Assembly (NCBI RefSeq): GCF_002080415.1
Contig: NZ_CP020474.1
Location: 1,935,501-1,999,500 of the forward strand
Length of the DNA: 64,000 nt
Reading direction: 5' to 3'
From: Roseovarius mucosus
Lineage (GTDB): Bacteria; Pseudomonadota; Alphaproteobacteria; Rhodobacterales; Rhodobacteraceae
Shown: positions 38,820 through 46,012 of the stretch, in pieces
Numbering within the stretch: the first letter of the stretch is position 1
Layout of the letters: the number at the start of each line of letters is the position of its first letter
The notes under the pieces: model-generated
The model's input: only the letters and a program-made list of their open reading frames with translations
Database searches by the model: none
What the model was told of the DNA's origin: nothing
Made by a program: the position numbers and the translations under genes

Positions 38820-39415
38820 TGTCTCTGCCGCGTTTCTATCCGATTTTCGATCACACGGACTGGCTTCGCCGCGTGCTGCCACTTGGTGTTAAACTCGTGC
38901 AGTTGCGCATCAAGGATCTTACGGGCGAGGCCTTGAACGCGCAAATTACGCAGGCAGAGAGCCTATGTCGGACCCATGGTGCCACTCTCGTGGTCAACGA
39001 TCATTGGCAAGCCGCGATTGATACAGGCGCGACTTGGGTGCATCTGGGGCAGGAGGATCTCGACACCGCCGACATTCCCGCCATGCGCCGTGCCGGGCTG
39101 AAGCTGGGGCTTAGCACCCATGATCATGCGGAGCTTGACCGGGCTCTCTCGCACGATCCTGATTACGTGGCGCTTGGTCCGGTCTATCCCACCATCCTGA
39201 AAAAGATGAAGTGGCACGAACAGGGTCTGGACAAGTTGACCGAATGGAAGCGCCTGATCGGCGACGTTCCCTTGGTCGCCATCGGGGGCATGTCGGTTGA
39301 GCGGGCGGGTGGGGCCTATGCGGCCGGGGCGGATATCGTGTCTGCCGTGACAGATATCACGCTCAATCCCGACCCCGAGGCGCGGGTGCAGCACTGGATT
39401 GAGGTCACGCGATGA
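38819..39415 (+). CDS. thiE: Thiamine phosphate synthase ThiE
   Basis: ThiE joins HMP-PP and thiazole phosphate to thiamine phosphate. The 198-residue TIM-barrel protein shows VKLVQLRIKD, LVVNDHWQAAIDTGATWVHLGQEDL, LGLSTHDHAELDRA, YVALGPVYPT and VAIGGMSVERA, all in the family order. It is slightly short for the family but the motifs are complete. It overlaps both neighbours by 1-4 bases. Confidence 0.95.
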   Translation: MSLPRFYPIFDHTDWLRRVLPLGVKLVQLRIKDLTGEALNAQITQAESLCRTHGATLVVNDHWQAAIDTGATWVHLGQEDLDTADIPAMRRAGLKLGLSTHDHAELDRALSHDPDYVALGPVYPTILKKMKWHEQGLDKLTEWKRLIGDVPLVAIGGMSVERAGGAYAAGADIVSAVTDITLNPDPEARVQHWIEVTR

Positions 39416-40395
39416 CCCGTTATGCACGTCAGATCGCCCTGCCCGCGTTTGGGGTTGCTGGTCAGGATCGGCTTGCGGCGGCGCATGTGCTGGTGGTGGG
39501 TGCGGGCGGCTTGGCCGCCCCGGTGCTGCAATACCTCGTGGGCGCAGGTGTGGGGCGCATCACGCTGATGGATGGCGACCGGGTCAGTCTCAGCAACTTG
39601 CACCGTCAAACGCTGTTTCGCATGGCGGATATCGGCCAACCAAAGGCGCAGGTTGCCGCGGCACACATGACCTTGCTAAATCCAGATTGCAAGATTTCAG
39701 CCGTATTAGAGCCGCTTGATCCGGTCAATGCACCGGGCCATGTCGCGGTCGTTGATCTTGTGCTCGACTGCGCTGACAGTTTCGCGGCAAGTTACATATT
39801 GTCCGACACCTGCCATGGCTTGGGCAAGCCGCTGATCAGCGCGTCCATCGTTGGCACCTCTGGCTACGTCGGTGGCTTTTGCGGCGGCGCGCCCTCGTTG
39901 CGTGCGCTGTTTCCGGACCTGCCAGACCGATTAGGCAGTTGCGATGCTGATGGCGTGTTTGGTCCCGCTGTCGGTGTTATGGGCAGTCTTCAGGCGCAGA
40001 TGGCAATCGCGATTTTAGCCGGAATAGAGCCTGATCCATTGGGGCAGCTTGTGACCTTTGAGGCGATCGGTTCCCGCTTCGGCGGCTTCCGCTTTGACAA
40101 AGCACCAGAGCCAGAGGATGGATTTCATTTTATTGCCCCCGCTCAGATCACGCCCTCCGATTGGCTGATCGACCTGCGCGCCGAGGCAGAGAGCGGGCCC
40201 GCTTTGCCAAACGCCATCCGCCGTAGCGTTTCGGATTTCGAATACCCCACCACGCATCCGCAGGGGCCGCGCGCGGTGCTCGCGTGCCGCTCTGGTTTGC
40301 GGTCATGGCAAGCCGCAACACGGCTGCGCGGCCACTGGGACGGCGAAATTGCCCTGATCGCCCTTGGCGACGTTCAACAGGAGACAGATACATGA
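39412..40395 (+). CDS. thiF: ThiF/MoeB-family adenylyltransferase with a short rhodanese-like tail
   Basis: The 327-residue E1-like enzyme would adenylate the ThiS C-terminus. VVGAGGLAAPVLQYLVGAGVGRITLMDGD is the nucleotide-binding start, with SNLHRQTLF and the DCADSFAASYILSD segments. The C-terminal 90 residues resemble a rhodanese domain whose candidate active loop is ACRSGLRS with a cysteine. The tail is short, so activity of that part is uncertain. By operon position it serves thiazole synthesis; it could also serve MoaD. It overlaps thiE and thiY by 4 bases each. Confidence 0.9.
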   Translation: MTRYARQIALPAFGVAGQDRLAAAHVLVVGAGGLAAPVLQYLVGAGVGRITLMDGDRVSLSNLHRQTLFRMADIGQPKAQVAAAHMTLLNPDCKISAVLEPLDPVNAPGHVAVVDLVLDCADSFAASYILSDTCHGLGKPLISASIVGTSGYVGGFCGGAPSLRALFPDLPDRLGSCDADGVFGPAVGVMGSLQAQMAIAILAGIEPDPLGQLVTFEAIGSRFGGFRFDKAPEPEDGFHFIAPAQITPSDWLIDLRAEAESGPALPNAIRRSVSDFEYPTTHPQGPRAVLACRSGLRSWQAATRLRGHWDGEIALIALGDVQQETDT

Positions 40396-41324
40396 AACAC
40401 CTCACCCTGATCTTTGCCCTTTTGGCCAGCCCGGCCATGGCGCAGGACAAGATGACCCTGATCCTCGATTGGTTCATAAACCCCGATCACGGGCCCATCA
40501 TTCTGGCCGAGGAATTGGGATATTTCAAAGAAGCCGGACTCGAGGTAGAGGTCATTGCCCCCGCCGACCCAAGTGATCCGCCCAAGATGGTCGCCGCCGG
40601 GCAAGCCGATCTTGCGATTTCCTATCAGCCGCAATTGCACATGCAGATCGAGAATGGCCTTCCGCTGCGCCGCGTTGGCACGCTCGTTGCCACGCCGCTC
40701 AATTGTCTCTTGGTGTTAGAGGATGGGCCGATCAAATCCACGGCTGACCTTAAGGGCCGCAAGGTTGGTTTTTCGGTGGCTGGCGTCGAAGAAGTGCTGC
40801 TTTCAACAATTCTTGCGCAGCATGGCCACAGCCTGAGCGATATCGAACTGGTCAGCGTCAACTGGTCGCTGTCGCCCTCGCTCATGTCCGGTCAGGTCGA
40901 TGCGGTGATCGGCGCCTATCGTAACTTCGAGCTTAATCAGATGGAGATCGAAGGCGTGCCGGGCCGCTGTTTCTATATCGAGGAAGAAGGTGTGCCCGCC
41001 TATGACGAGCTGATCTATGTCGCCAATCCCGATTCGATGGATGCCGAGATGATCCGCCGCTTTCTGCACGCCACTGAGCGCGCAACGCAGTACATCATGA
41101 ACCATCCGCAAGACAGCTGGGAGATTTTCGCAGGCACTTCGCCCGAATTGCAGGATGAGCTTAATGAAAAGGCTTGGGTTGACACTTTTCCACGCTTTGC
41201 AACCCGGCCCGCCGCCTTGGATCACGCGCGCTACAAGCGGTTTGAACAATTCCTGCTCGACGCAGGAATGATCAGTGACGCGACCCCGGTTTCCGGGCTT
41301 GCCATGGACCTGAACGCAGAATGA
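40392..41324 (+). CDS. thiY: Thiamine-pyrimidine precursor-binding protein ThiY (NMT1/THI5-like)
   Basis: A 310-residue periplasmic binding protein of the NMT1/THI5-like family. A signal peptide (about 1-17, AMA) is followed by LDWFINPDHGPIILAEELGYF, typical of ThiY, which binds formylaminopyrimidine from degraded thiamine. Its start overlaps thiF and its stop overlaps tenA. The permease ThiX and ATPase ThiZ that normally go with it are not in this operon; tenA is followed by an opposite-strand gene. Confidence 0.88.
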   Translation: MKHLTLIFALLASPAMAQDKMTLILDWFINPDHGPIILAEELGYFKEAGLEVEVIAPADPSDPPKMVAAGQADLAISYQPQLHMQIENGLPLRRVGTLVATPLNCLLVLEDGPIKSTADLKGRKVGFSVAGVEEVLLSTILAQHGHSLSDIELVSVNWSLSPSLMSGQVDAVIGAYRNFELNQMEIEGVPGRCFYIEEEGVPAYDELIYVANPDSMDAEMIRRFLHATERATQYIMNHPQDSWEIFAGTSPELQDELNEKAWVDTFPRFATRPAALDHARYKRFEQFLLDAGMISDATPVSGLAMDLNAE

Positions 41325-42004
41325 CGCGCGATTACGGAACGACCTTTCCCCGCTTGCGCGATGCGGCGGGCACGGTCTGGCAGGACTATACGCATCACGC
41401 CTTTGTCGAAGGATTGGGTAACGGCACGTTACCGCGCAAGGCCTTCCTTGGTTATCTCGTGCAGGATTACGTATTCCTAATCCATTTTGCGCGGGCTTGG
41501 GCGCTCGCTGTGACCAAAGCCGATGCGCTCGAGGAAATGCGCGCCTGCGCCGCCACCGTTGATGCGCTGGTCAATCACGAACTTAGCCTGCATGTGAAAA
41601 CCTGCGCCGAGGCGGGGCTAAGCGAGGCGGATCTCTACACCGCCGAAGAGCATCCCGCCAACCTTGCCTATACGCGCTACGTGCTTGACGCGGGCCATTC
41701 TGGCAATTTCCTTGACCTTCTGGCCGCCCTTACCCCATGCGTCATGGGCTATGGCGAGATTGGCGCGCGGCTAGGGCCGGTGCCTGCGGATCACCCCTAT
41801 GCGGATTGGATCAACACCTATGCAGGCGACGCCTATCAACAGGTTTGTCGCGATTCTGGCACGCTCTTTGACGGAGCCGTCCTTCTGCGGCTGGGAGCAG
41901 GTGCCGAGACAACCCCGGCCTGGGGGCGGCTATGCCAGCGTTTTACTACGGCGACGCGATTAGAGGTAAGCTTTTGGGATATGGGCCTGTCGTTTGGGGC
42001 GTGA
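41321..42004 (+). CDS. tenA: Aminopyrimidine aminohydrolase TenA
   Basis: TenA hydrolyses aminomethyl-aminopyrimidine (and in some cases thiamine) to HMP for salvage. The 227-residue all-helical protein has the active-site cysteine Cys140 in ALTPCVMGYGEIG and the YLVQDYVFLIHFAR segment. It ends the thi operon, overlaps thiY by 4 bases and converges with the DUF3307 gene with only 5 bases between the stops. With ThiY and ThiD it forms a salvage route. Confidence 0.94.
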   Translation: MTRDYGTTFPRLRDAAGTVWQDYTHHAFVEGLGNGTLPRKAFLGYLVQDYVFLIHFARAWALAVTKADALEEMRACAATVDALVNHELSLHVKTCAEAGLSEADLYTAEEHPANLAYTRYVLDAGHSGNFLDLLAALTPCVMGYGEIGARLGPVPADHPYADWINTYAGDAYQQVCRDSGTLFDGAVLLRLGAGAETTPAWGRLCQRFTTATRLEVSFWDMGLSFGA

Positions 42005-42519: not shown

Positions 42520-44298
42520 TCACCGGCGCGGCAAACCCATCGAGACGAGCGTTTCCAGGTCATCCTTGATCCCCGCCACCAGCGCGGGCCATTTTGGAAA
42601 GTGAAACCCGTATTTGATTACATCCAACGAGAAATCTGGCCGCACGGTCAAGGCCTGCGCCAAGGCACGCTCTGCCGTGGTCTGATCCCCGGCGCGCAGG
42701 GATAGAACAGCATAGGCGGAATGCACAAAGGCCTCCGCCCCAGGATTGCGCGCCGCAGGTTCGAGATACTGGCGCATATTCTCACCCAAGCTCATGTCGC
42801 GCATCCAGATGGCAACGGCGAGCATCCAGTAAAAGGACCACAGCATCGGATCCTGAGGGCTGAGGCGAATGGCCTCTAGCCCGGCCGCTTCCATCTCTTC
42901 GGTGTTGGGGTTCTTTTGGAAGAGGTTGATAAAGGTCTGCGCGTTATAGATCAGCGCATCGTTGTGATTGAGCGCCCGCGCGCGGGCCAACGCCTCTCTG
43001 GCATCGTTTTCTTGCCCTTGCAGCGTCAAAAGTTGCGCAAGCGTGATATGCCCAAGCTCGAGCCTGTCATCCAATTCGATGGCGCGATTGGCGTGAAACA
43101 TGCCCTTCACCACATCCTCGCGGGGATTGCGGCTCCGGCCCGAGTAAATCCGCACCGCATGAACACGTCCTATCAGCGCATGGGGCAAAGCATAGGTCGG
43201 ATCTGCCTCGGCGGCGGCATGAAAGAGGGCGGTTGCGTTACGGACGCCGCCAGAGGTGCGCATGTCAATCTCGGTCAGGCCACGCTGGCACATTTCCCAA
43301 GCTGACAGGCTCTCGGTGGGTTTGGCGCGCGACATGGCACGCTCATGCGCGCCAATCTCCGGTGTCAGCCCAGTCACGATACAGCGCGTGATGTCATCTT
43401 GCAGCGCAAAGAGATCAGCCATGTCGCGATCATAGCGATCAGACCATATCTGACGACCTGTCTCGGCCTCGATCAGTTGTGCGGTGACACGCAGACGGGC
43501 ACCCGCACGGCGCACAGCACCTTTGACCACATAGCGCACACGCATGTCCTGCGCGATCTGGCGCATGTCTTGCGCGCGGTCTTTATACGCAAAGGAGGAG
43601 CCGCGTGCGATGACAAAAAGCGAGCGAAACCGCGACAACTCGTTGATCAAATCTTCGGCGATCCCATCCGCCAGAAACCCATCCTCGACCGAAGAGGACA
43701 AGTTATCGAAGGGCAGCACGATGACAGAAGGACGATCTGCGCTCTGGGTGACGGTGCTGCGGTTCTCGGCTTCGACCCCGGTTGTGACATGCCAAACCTC
43801 AACCGGCGTGGGGATGTTTCGGACAAATTGCATGCCTTGCCCGGTGATCGTCAGGCCCGGTTCCCGCGCCAGCATGTCGCGCACCGTGCGTGACACGCAA
43901 ATGCCGCCGGGTGCCGATAGGGTTTCAAGCCGCGCCGCAATATTGACGACATCGCCCAGAACATCGCTTCCGTCGATCAGGACACTGCCGTGGTTTATCC
44001 CCACGCGCAGCCAGATACGCAGGTCGTCGGGTTCCTGAAGCTGATGCGCGGCAATAGCGCGTTGCGCGCTCAAAGAGGCATGGACCGCTGCGGCAGGGCC
44101 GGGGAATTCCACCAAAAGCCCGTCGCCCATGGATTTGACGACCCGTCCACCATGATCAGCAATCGCCGGGTCAATAATGGCGTGCCGCAAGATGCGCAGC
44201 CGCTCAAACACCCCCTCCTCGTCCATTGCGACGAGGCGAGAAAACCCCACCACATCCGCGGCGGCGATAGTTGTCGCCCTGCGCTCCAGCGCTTTCAC
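42520..44298 (-). CDS. Class III adenylate cyclase with a C-terminal TPR-like domain
   Basis: A 592-residue signalling protein. Residues about 8-175 are a class III nucleotidyl cyclase domain (AADVVGFSRL with the metal-binding Asp, then VKSMGDGLLVEF with the second one, DVVNIAARLE). Residues about 190-320 resemble the TolB-like/FlgO-like domain often found in this family (PFDNLSSSVEDGFLADGIAEDLINELSR), and the rest is TPR-like helical repeats. No membrane segment is evident. The start is a GTG with GGGGACAGAG upstream. It lies 41 bases after the permuted FAD enzyme on the same strand. Confidence 0.88.
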   Translation of the reverse strand: MKALERRATTIAAADVVGFSRLVAMDEEGVFERLRILRHAIIDPAIADHGGRVVKSMGDGLLVEFPGPAAAVHASLSAQRAIAAHQLQEPDDLRIWLRVGINHGSVLIDGSDVLGDVVNIAARLETLSAPGGICVSRTVRDMLAREPGLTITGQGMQFVRNIPTPVEVWHVTTGVEAENRSTVTQSADRPSVIVLPFDNLSSSVEDGFLADGIAEDLINELSRFRSLFVIARGSSFAYKDRAQDMRQIAQDMRVRYVVKGAVRRAGARLRVTAQLIEAETGRQIWSDRYDRDMADLFALQDDITRCIVTGLTPEIGAHERAMSRAKPTESLSAWEMCQRGLTEIDMRTSGGVRNATALFHAAAEADPTYALPHALIGRVHAVRIYSGRSRNPREDVVKGMFHANRAIELDDRLELGHITLAQLLTLQGQENDAREALARARALNHNDALIYNAQTFINLFQKNPNTEEMEAAGLEAIRLSPQDPMLWSFYWMLAVAIWMRDMSLGENMRQYLEPAARNPGAEAFVHSAYAVLSLRAGDQTTAERALAQALTVRPDFSLDVIKYGFHFPKWPALVAGIKDDLETLVSMGLPRR

Positions 44299-44339: not shown

Positions 44340-45893
44340 TTAAGGTAAGCGGGTGATCTTTGTCACCTGAGCATTTTGAGTGATACTTAGCGTCGGGGCC
44401 ATTTGTTTCCAGATATCAAGCCAACCTTTTGACAAAACGGTAACTGCTGGCTTGTCGCTGAAAATCAGACCAAGGGTCAGGGGCAATGAAATCCAGATCA
44501 TGCCATAATAGGCTGGGATTTGTTTCAGCGGGCCATATCCCTGCACCGAATAGGCATATTCCAGCATTCCTGTCAGGATCAGCAGATCATTCTTGGCGAG
44601 AAAATCGTAGAAGCTGTCATATTGCAGCAACTCCTTCGGCGCACTCAGCGGCATCGGCAGGGTAAGCCCACGGTAGATCGCCAAGAGCACGTCATACTCT
44701 GCAAGACGCACAAAGATTTCGGCCTTGACCTTATCCTCATTGAACCCGGCCATCCAGTTTTCCGGATCGGCAAAGGGCTGGTTGGCCTCGTAGTAACCTT
44801 TGAGCAGGGTGTAGTCGTCATAATCCATCAAGGTGGCCGGGGCAGGCACGCCGGGAAACTGCCCTGTCGTCACCATGGCGCGGATTGAATGGCCTGCGGG
44901 GTCCTGGTGATCGGCGGTCAGAAACATGCCCTCGCGGATATTCCCGTCCATGAACCCGCAGGCGGCAAAATGCGCGGCCATCTTGTCATACGCGGGTGAG
45001 AGATAGCAGGTGCCCAATTCACAGGGTGTGGGTTGCCCATTGGGCGATGGTGTATCGTAGGTGACGGTATGCGTTTTGCCTCCGAAACGGTCTGTGGATT
45101 CGAGGATTTCGACATTGGTATAGCCCAAACCTTGCAGCCGATGCGCGAACATCATGCCCGAAGGCCCAGCCCCCAGCACAATGATAGGCGCCCCTTTGTC
45201 GGCAGGTAGCGACCAACCCAGCGCCGCCTGCTGATCCAGCAGCATCCCGCCATATTGCCAGCACTGCAGCACGGATTCAAAGCAGGTCGAGCCATGCACA
45301 AAAACCGTGTTGTTCTTGCCCTGCAGGCCCAGATAATTCCACGGTCCGCCACCGCGAAGACCCGTATTATCGAAATGGTCGAAATAGGGCGTCCGCAGAT
45401 CGACCGGCGCGCCGGTGCTGTCGGTCACAATCTCATAATCCGGATAAGGCCACCAATCGAGCGTCGGCAGCGTCTGCTCCAGATTGGCGAGAAACTCCGC
45501 CTCGGTCATTGGCGGATTGGCCGGACCCTGTAGCTGATACACGGTGACAAGGTTCTCAGTCATGGAGTTGGCGGTCTCTAACGAGAATTGCTTGGCTGTT
45601 TCGTTGCGATACCCACTGACATGGCCCGCCATGGCCGAAATCTCTGTCGGCGCTAAAATGATGCCATATTGCGGCGCAGGATTGGGCACCTTTACCCTCA
45701 CCAAAGTGGTGTGAAAGGTAAAGTTGGTCAGCTGACCAAAGACCGCTGTTTCTGCTGCGGTATAGTCACAAATACTGCTCAGATTGCGTGGCTCGCAGGC
45801 GACGACCAAAAGATCGCAAGTTTTGGTGACTGGGGCAGCCCCATCAATGGCAACGGTCAGCGTGACGGCTGGAGAGGTTGTTGTGGGCGTCAA
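44340..45893 (-). CDS. FAD-dependent amine-oxidase-like protein with apparently permuted domain order
   Basis: A 517-residue protein. The FAD dinucleotide-binding motif IIVLGAGPSGMMFAHRL, with the acidic residue in ILESTDRFGGKTHT, is at about 237-275 instead of the N-terminus. Residues 1-220 look like the C-terminal part of the same family: CDLLVVACEP (as in DLLIIA-type strands), then GKNNTVFVHGSTCFESVLQCWQYGGML, which normally ends such proteins. The last residues (QNAQVTKITRLP) would lead straight into the first (AVTLTVAIDGAAPV). The start is TTG at 45893 with AGGAG 7 bases upstream. No signal peptide. Substrate unknown. Confidence 0.8.
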   Translation of the reverse strand: MTPTTTSPAVTLTVAIDGAAPVTKTCDLLVVACEPRNLSSICDYTAAETAVFGQLTNFTFHTTLVRVKVPNPAPQYGIILAPTEISAMAGHVSGYRNETAKQFSLETANSMTENLVTVYQLQGPANPPMTEAEFLANLEQTLPTLDWWPYPDYEIVTDSTGAPVDLRTPYFDHFDNTGLRGGGPWNYLGLQGKNNTVFVHGSTCFESVLQCWQYGGMLLDQQAALGWSLPADKGAPIIVLGAGPSGMMFAHRLQGLGYTNVEILESTDRFGGKTHTVTYDTPSPNGQPTPCELGTCYLSPAYDKMAAHFAACGFMDGNIREGMFLTADHQDPAGHSIRAMVTTGQFPGVPAPATLMDYDDYTLLKGYYEANQPFADPENWMAGFNEDKVKAEIFVRLAEYDVLLAIYRGLTLPMPLSAPKELLQYDSFYDFLAKNDLLILTGMLEYAYSVQGYGPLKQIPAYYGMIWISLPLTLGLIFSDKPAVTVLSKGWLDIWKQMAPTLSITQNAQVTKITRLP

Positions 45894-46012
45894 AACAGGT
45901 CTCCTGGAATCAGTGATGAAAAACTGGCCCGAAACGGGGCAATTTTGACGCTACACTGATTTGCGTAACGGTTGAATCTTTTATGCGGGGCACAAGCCTT
46001 GCGCGCAGAGCT

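Follow-up and report, generated by a model that had tools for sequence, protein, structure and literature searches.

The closest described systems for the gene treated here are the polyenoic fatty acid isomerase (PAI)-type enzymes of the flavin amine-oxidase superfamily (PF01593; MAO, polyamine oxidase, LSD1), represented by the conjugated linoleic acid-producing isomerase of Propionibacterium acnes (Protein Data Bank (PDB) entry 2b9w). In the canonical order of the PAI family the Rossmann motif is N-terminal, which was not found for the product of an open reading frame (ORF) in a stretch of 64,000 nucleotides of Roseovarius mucosus (contig NZ_CP020474.1, positions 1,935,501 to 1,999,500; this whole stretch is called the window). 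The ORF product, a putative flavin adenine dinucleotide (FAD) enzyme, is almost certainly a circular permutant relative to PAI-type enzymes.

Natural permutation is described, in passages of the respective sources, for DNA/RNA methyltransferases (PMC1282579), glutathione synthetase (PMC2876114), and split-barrel flavin reductases (Murzin 1998, cited in PMC13327496), and a passage of PMC4408115 reports engineered LucY/MurB permutants of an FAD protein, several of which were still fluorescent. The permuted domain of the methyltransferases is likewise Rossmann-like and the fold is kept, the family and cofactor domain being unrelated to the present ones. Glutathione synthetase and the flavin reductases also keep their fold despite a permuted chain, again with unrelated families and cofactor domains, and the LucY/MurB permutants are FAD proteins too, but man-made and of unrelated fold. 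A library of open-access papers, to which the search was confined (subscription papers lay outside it), yielded no recognised natural permutant of the flavin amine-oxidase superfamily, and none is described in the passages cited above or in one of PMC6957218.

Reading frame and order of the two halves

The ORF (44340..45893, minus strand) was read from TTG through 517 codons with no internal stop (Table 1). An intact frame, the TTG start, and an AGGAG site had been claimed in the first-pass annotation of the window and were all borne out by the sequence. A TTG codon at the matching position, preceded by a purine-rich stretch, was found in loci L046, L047, L049, L051, and L052 with a search pattern that missed L048 and L050, and the flavoenzyme of L029 starts with ATG, versus TTG in the window. 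In the translation, CDLLVVACEP was located at residues 26-35, VFVHGSTCFESVLQCWQYGGML at 197-218, and the start of IIVLGAGPSGMMFAHRL at 237, where the annotation had placed its C-terminal-type elements (within 1-220) and its Rossmann motif (near 237).

Table 1. Coordinates of the flavoenzyme gene, its parts, and its downstream neighbour in the window
Feature	Position	Strand	Details	Basis
Gene of circularly permuted PAI-like FAD enzyme	44340..45893	-	517 aa, TTG start; order common to family	
Ribosome-binding site AGGAG	45901..45905	-	7 nt 5' of TTG	sequence
Residues 6-212, end half of unpermuted enzyme	45258..45878	-	second FAD-binding strand region, end of substrate domain, C-terminal segment	
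Residues 221-235, linker	45189..45233	-	old C-terminus to old N-terminus	rotation scan
Residues 231-517, starting half of unpermuted enzyme	44343..45203	-	GxGxxG Rossmann motif, GGK, ELG, first part of substrate domain	
Class III nucleotide cyclase, directly downstream, probable partner	42520..44298	-	592 aa	Pfam Guanylate_cyc 8-160; weak TPR match below cut-off

Pfam models exceeded their cut-offs in the Rossmann part only (NAD_binding_8 at 239-300, Amino_oxidase at 245-351), and the Amino_oxidase match (PF01593, 31.1 bits against a cut-off of 19.8) was limited to profile positions 2-95 of 443 because the order is permuted. The protein thus shares with the superfamily FAD motifs that pass the Pfam cut-off on part of the profile, and differs from it in its permuted order. 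A search of the 517-aa protein against NCBIfam gave no model over its cut-off.

An AlphaFold2 model of the 517-aa protein was obtained with a mean pLDDT of 93.1, and its top match in the PDB (Foldseek among the searches) was 2b9w over the range 2-233. When residues 1-230 were modelled by themselves, 2b9w was again the top match (tied with 9kp8), with residues 6-212 lying over 232-414. In these predicted models the two matches are complementary: residue 517 falls at 2b9w 233 and residue 6 at 2b9w 232, in agreement with the earlier statement that the end of the protein reads naturally into its start. The reversed order of elements was likewise upheld, since residues 231-517 matched the N-terminal half and residues 6-212 the C-terminal half of unpermuted PAI-type enzymes. 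The label 'amine-oxidase-like' stands at the level of the superfamily and is to be narrowed to PAI-like within it.

A search over 5.8 billion proteins gave 200 matches at E <= 1e-3, of which the 120 listed relatives were analysed; the window protein and 74 of them formed the family profile A2 (75 sequences). Against 2b9w, the family profile aligned in three stretches (230-279 with 4-53, 415-509 with 145-232, and 120-208 with 325-410), the latter two being individually weak (4.9 and 9.6 bits). The unpermuted reference set was seeded with L022 (Candidatus Uhrbacteria), and 26 of its 35 listed homologues were kept after removal of pieces (P0125, P0136, P0148) and weak matches (P0150-P0155). In all 26 of these relatives the Rossmann block is N-terminal, and in 24 a match to the 1-230 block was found downstream of it, some matches being individually weak (up to E 8.6).

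For profile-profile comparison by hhalign, the 75 family members were set against 29 unpermuted proteins (the 26 and the sisters L025-L027). The native order gave two swapped matches (scores 274 and 166) that meet at template columns 244/245, and the rotated profile gave one match with a score of 432 over 415 columns. When 34 cut points were scanned, the score rose from 274.4 for the native order to a maximum of 431.8 and stayed within 0.4 of it for cuts 221-233, a flat maximum that fits the linker proposed earlier near residues 221-235. Each of the unpermuted sisters L025-L027 was matched as one domain by the rotated profile (155-169 bits) and as two swapped domains by the native one. In the 12 longer sister proteins (P0156-P0167) the rotated profile spanned nearly the whole length (150-204 bits), as one match in 10 and as two matches in order in 2. 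These sisters (L025-L027, P0156-P0167), which are also nearest in the tree, differ from the ORF product in having the canonical order with the Rossmann part first; the three Aphanomyces ones are named 'Amine oxidase domain-containing'.

The permutation is supported because the gain in score on rotating the profile, the two complementary matches to one PDB entry, and the end-to-end collinearity of the unpermuted sisters after rotation only all point to it. One result was negative: the lone rotated sequence, used without a profile, scored no better than the native one. In sum, the ORF product resembles 2b9w in the predicted fold of both halves, in the FAD motifs, and in the collinear profile after rotation, and is unlike it in being permuted, in its low identity, and in being about 95 residues longer, part of which is a longer segment between about 281 and 410.

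Relatives, extensions, and origin of the permuted order

The listed relatives carry source names such as Roseovarius, Aurantimonas, Pelagovum, Nostoc, Calothrix, Mastigocoleus, and Bacteroidota, the groups named being Alphaproteobacteria, Cyanobacteria, and Bacteroidota. The A2 profile gave a single match in each of the 120, and in 119 this match ran across the join of the 1-230 part to the Rossmann part; the sole exception was the broken P0120 (330 aa), in which similarity is lost beyond profile position 250 or so. P0117 (446 aa) is without the opening stretch of the N-terminal half. A search for orthologues with the same order, which the annotation had proposed, thus found the swapped order in 119 of the 120, which rules out an oddity of a single genome: the annotation was right about a permuted flavoenzyme, and the order that it noticed is common to the family and not confined to this protein. 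A copy of the gene free of stops and 76-94% identical is present in seven further genomes of the genus, and pairwise NG86 ratios of nonsynonymous to synonymous change (dN/dS) between the window and all seven congeners were 0.04-0.14, as under purifying selection, in a comparison in which synonymous sites are far diverged (pS 0.48-0.66) and from which L029 was left out.

Extensions of at least 50 residues at the N-terminus were found in 36 of the 120 listed relatives, and one of at least 30 residues at the C-terminus in the broken P0120 only. One homologous extension (53-143 aa) is common to 31 of the 36 (P0024 and 30 others); its best Pfam family was PH, with 18 of the 31 members at E <= 1 (best 0.0016), and since these matches are below the Pfam cut-off the extension is only tentatively assigned as a PH-like domain. 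PH domains are uncommon in bacteria. Other N-terminal fusions included a ricin-type lectin in P0048 and Lipase_3 in P0102; PH-like, ricin-type, and lipase domains are carried in lineages other than the alphaproteobacterial loci.

Distribution was counted in sampled genomes, the present one included. The permuted gene was found in 1/385 genomes of the class (with unpermuted sisters in 2 more), 2/390 of the order, 2/394 of the family, and 8/60 of the genus, and in 4/145 genomes of the family of the Nostoc genome (L016). The counts for class, order, and family may be low because at most three candidates were scored per genome. The genome of the window itself gave one match to the flavoenzyme, and a search of plasmids with it gave none.

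For trees, the permuted proteins were rotated in silico and represented by 24 of the 75 A2 rows. All 24 formed one clade, with support of 100/99 and 100/100 in two trees. In the second tree, which was rooted at the midpoint and in which outgroup branches are long and the 'sister' and 'PAI-like' sets are not single clades, the permuted clade grouped successively with three Aphanomyces proteins (98/87), P0164 (93/84), a bacterial group with L025-L027 (96/91), and then the PAI-like set. Because of this succession with unpermuted proteins, the permuted order is read as derived, probably once, and a single origin appears likely. Separate trees of each half (51 rows) recovered the same three groups with strong support. 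L020, L021, and P0149 were left out of the half trees and the second tree, and P0173 and three of the five own-genome outgroups were also left out of the latter.

Among unpermuted proteins, the closest to the permuted clade were P0165-P0167 from oomycetes (Aphanomyces; 98/87), an affinity that might reflect gene transfer from one domain of life to another.

Three other accounts of the swapped order were weighed. That residues 1-230 form an accessory domain of unrelated kind, fused before a truncated FAD domain, might be supposed from Pfam, which recognises a family at about 237-351 only and none over 1-230; this is very improbable, since residues 6-212 alone take 2b9w 232-414 as their top PDB chain, the second hhalign match joins them to the C-terminal half of unpermuted relatives with a probability of 98.5-99.3, and this half has its own positions conserved in both groups (E48, Y170, F171, Q191, G192, T196, Y214). 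An assembly error or a join of two gene copies, for which no supporting point was found, has next to no likelihood, being contradicted by the order common to 119 of the 120 listed relatives in three bacterial groups and to 8 of the 60 genus genomes (own included), and by the lone match in the own genome. The swapped order might also have come from fusion of half-genes (fission followed by fusion, or halves of different genes) or from separate events instead of one permutation of one gene. Fission and fusion are a recognised route to a permuted chain order, and half trees with three groups cannot tell which sister is nearer; against this, the two halves agree on three strongly supported clades, all sampled permuted proteins fall into a single clade, and their junction is common to the relatives, so that such an origin is judged improbable. 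Duplication with trimming and fission with fusion of one ancestral gene would look alike in these data.

Overall, the gene product is very probably a PAI-like FAD enzyme of two domains that has been circularly permuted in nature. In the most likely history, a single ancestral event broke the chain at the hairpin turn that immediately precedes the second FAD-binding strand region, and a linker of some 15 residues would have come to connect the former C-terminal helix with the former N-terminus of the Rossmann part.

Proposed function and gene neighbourhood

The predicted fold is kept, as are GxGxxG, Glu265, GGK (271-273), and ELG (292-294), which we take to be the FAD-site motifs, and G241, G243, G246, E265, G272, K273, G294, and other positions are conserved in the permuted and unpermuted groups. 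With fold and motifs retained, FAD is therefore expected, with high confidence, to be bound as in the unpermuted enzymes. The FAD may take a hydride from a hydrophobic substrate, for example an unsaturated fatty acid or lipid, and may return it, which would give an isomerised or an oxidised product. A fatty acid or lipid is our best guess at the substrate, put forward at somewhat below even confidence; the link to lipids is drawn because Lipase_3 is fused N-terminally in P0102 and encoded just upstream of the flavoenzyme in L037, one of three cyanobacterial loci with a visible upstream gene (L038 begins too close to the flavoenzyme to show one). Action on amines or amino acids instead of lipids is supported by membership of the PF01593 superfamily and by an apparent polyamine-type ABC transporter operon, assigned from the sequences, some 1.1 kb upstream and past a LysR gene; we consider it unlikely, though a serious candidate. 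The hallmarks of amine oxidases are a catalytic lysine near flavin N5 and an aromatic cage.

A class III cyclase was the next same-strand gene downstream in 9/9 of the intact alphaproteobacterial loci examined (the window, L046-L052, and L029), with Pfam Guanylate_cyc found in the cyclases of the window and L029, and with the cyclase of L047 running off its contig; these loci are not independent, as eight of the nine belong to one genus. In the genus sample, the 8 genomes with the flavoenzyme were the same 8 that carry the cyclase at >=73% identity, and the other 52 had none above 40%. A class III cyclase at E <= 1e-30 was present in 131/388 genomes of the family. Two results speak against a strict link: the stretches around the cyclases of G415 and G594 (45-47% identity, as near as that of G731) had no flavoenzyme, and no similar cyclase was found in the four cyanobacterial loci L016, L036, L037, and L038. 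The cyclase is thus not diagnostic by itself, because it is carried by so many family genomes, two of the closest lacking a nearby flavoenzyme. In comparison with Pycsar systems, only the catalytic part of the cyclase matched PycC models (best E 9.7e-8), and the flavoenzyme had no match at E <= 0.01 among PADLOC families. In the alphaproteobacterial loci the flavoenzyme reaction might, speculatively, feed a cyclic-nucleotide signal made by the co-encoded cyclase.

Decayed remnants of a flavoenzyme and a cyclase lie side by side at 7001-8297 of L017, from an alphaproteobacterial metagenome-assembled genome, as if the gene pair had been lost together.

LysR was rejected as a conserved regulator, since its position varies or it does not adjoin the flavoenzyme across the loci: it lies at about 1.9 kb in L046-L048 and at 4.3 kb in L051, and none adjoins in L049, L050, L052, or L029 (L049 has only a distant one downstream, 26%). 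The gap between LysR and flavoenzyme is about 120 bp in the window (45894-46012) versus about 1.9 kb in L046, L047, and L048, by insertion or loss. On the plus strand, 39412-42004 of the window hold a row of ThiF-like, ThiY/NMT1-like, and TenA-like genes, assigned from their sequences as a probable thiamine-salvage cluster.

Meaning of the permuted family

Natural permutation itself is already known in other enzymes; what appears to be new is the permuted variant found here, and the interest lies in a clean case and in the cyclase link. Large cofactor enzymes seldom show a clear natural circular permutation. The family is obscured by Pfam coverage of the Rossmann part only and by source names among the listed relatives such as 'NAD(P)-binding protein'. 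A joint reading, in which no natural permutant of the flavin amine-oxidase superfamily was recognised before this one, the N-terminus created by the cut came to serve for docking domains that target lipids or surfaces, and the alphaproteobacterial gene pair is a module linking lipid redox chemistry to a cyclic-nucleotide signal through the class III cyclase, is offered as a bold proposal that is unlikely to hold in every part. The chain is cut within the FAD-binding domain, at a point that separates the two elements binding FAD, and sisters without the permutation are available for comparison. The association with the cyclase is a testable functional lead, and the case tests how well a folded cofactor domain copes with new termini and what permutation buys, N-terminal extensions being the instance seen here.
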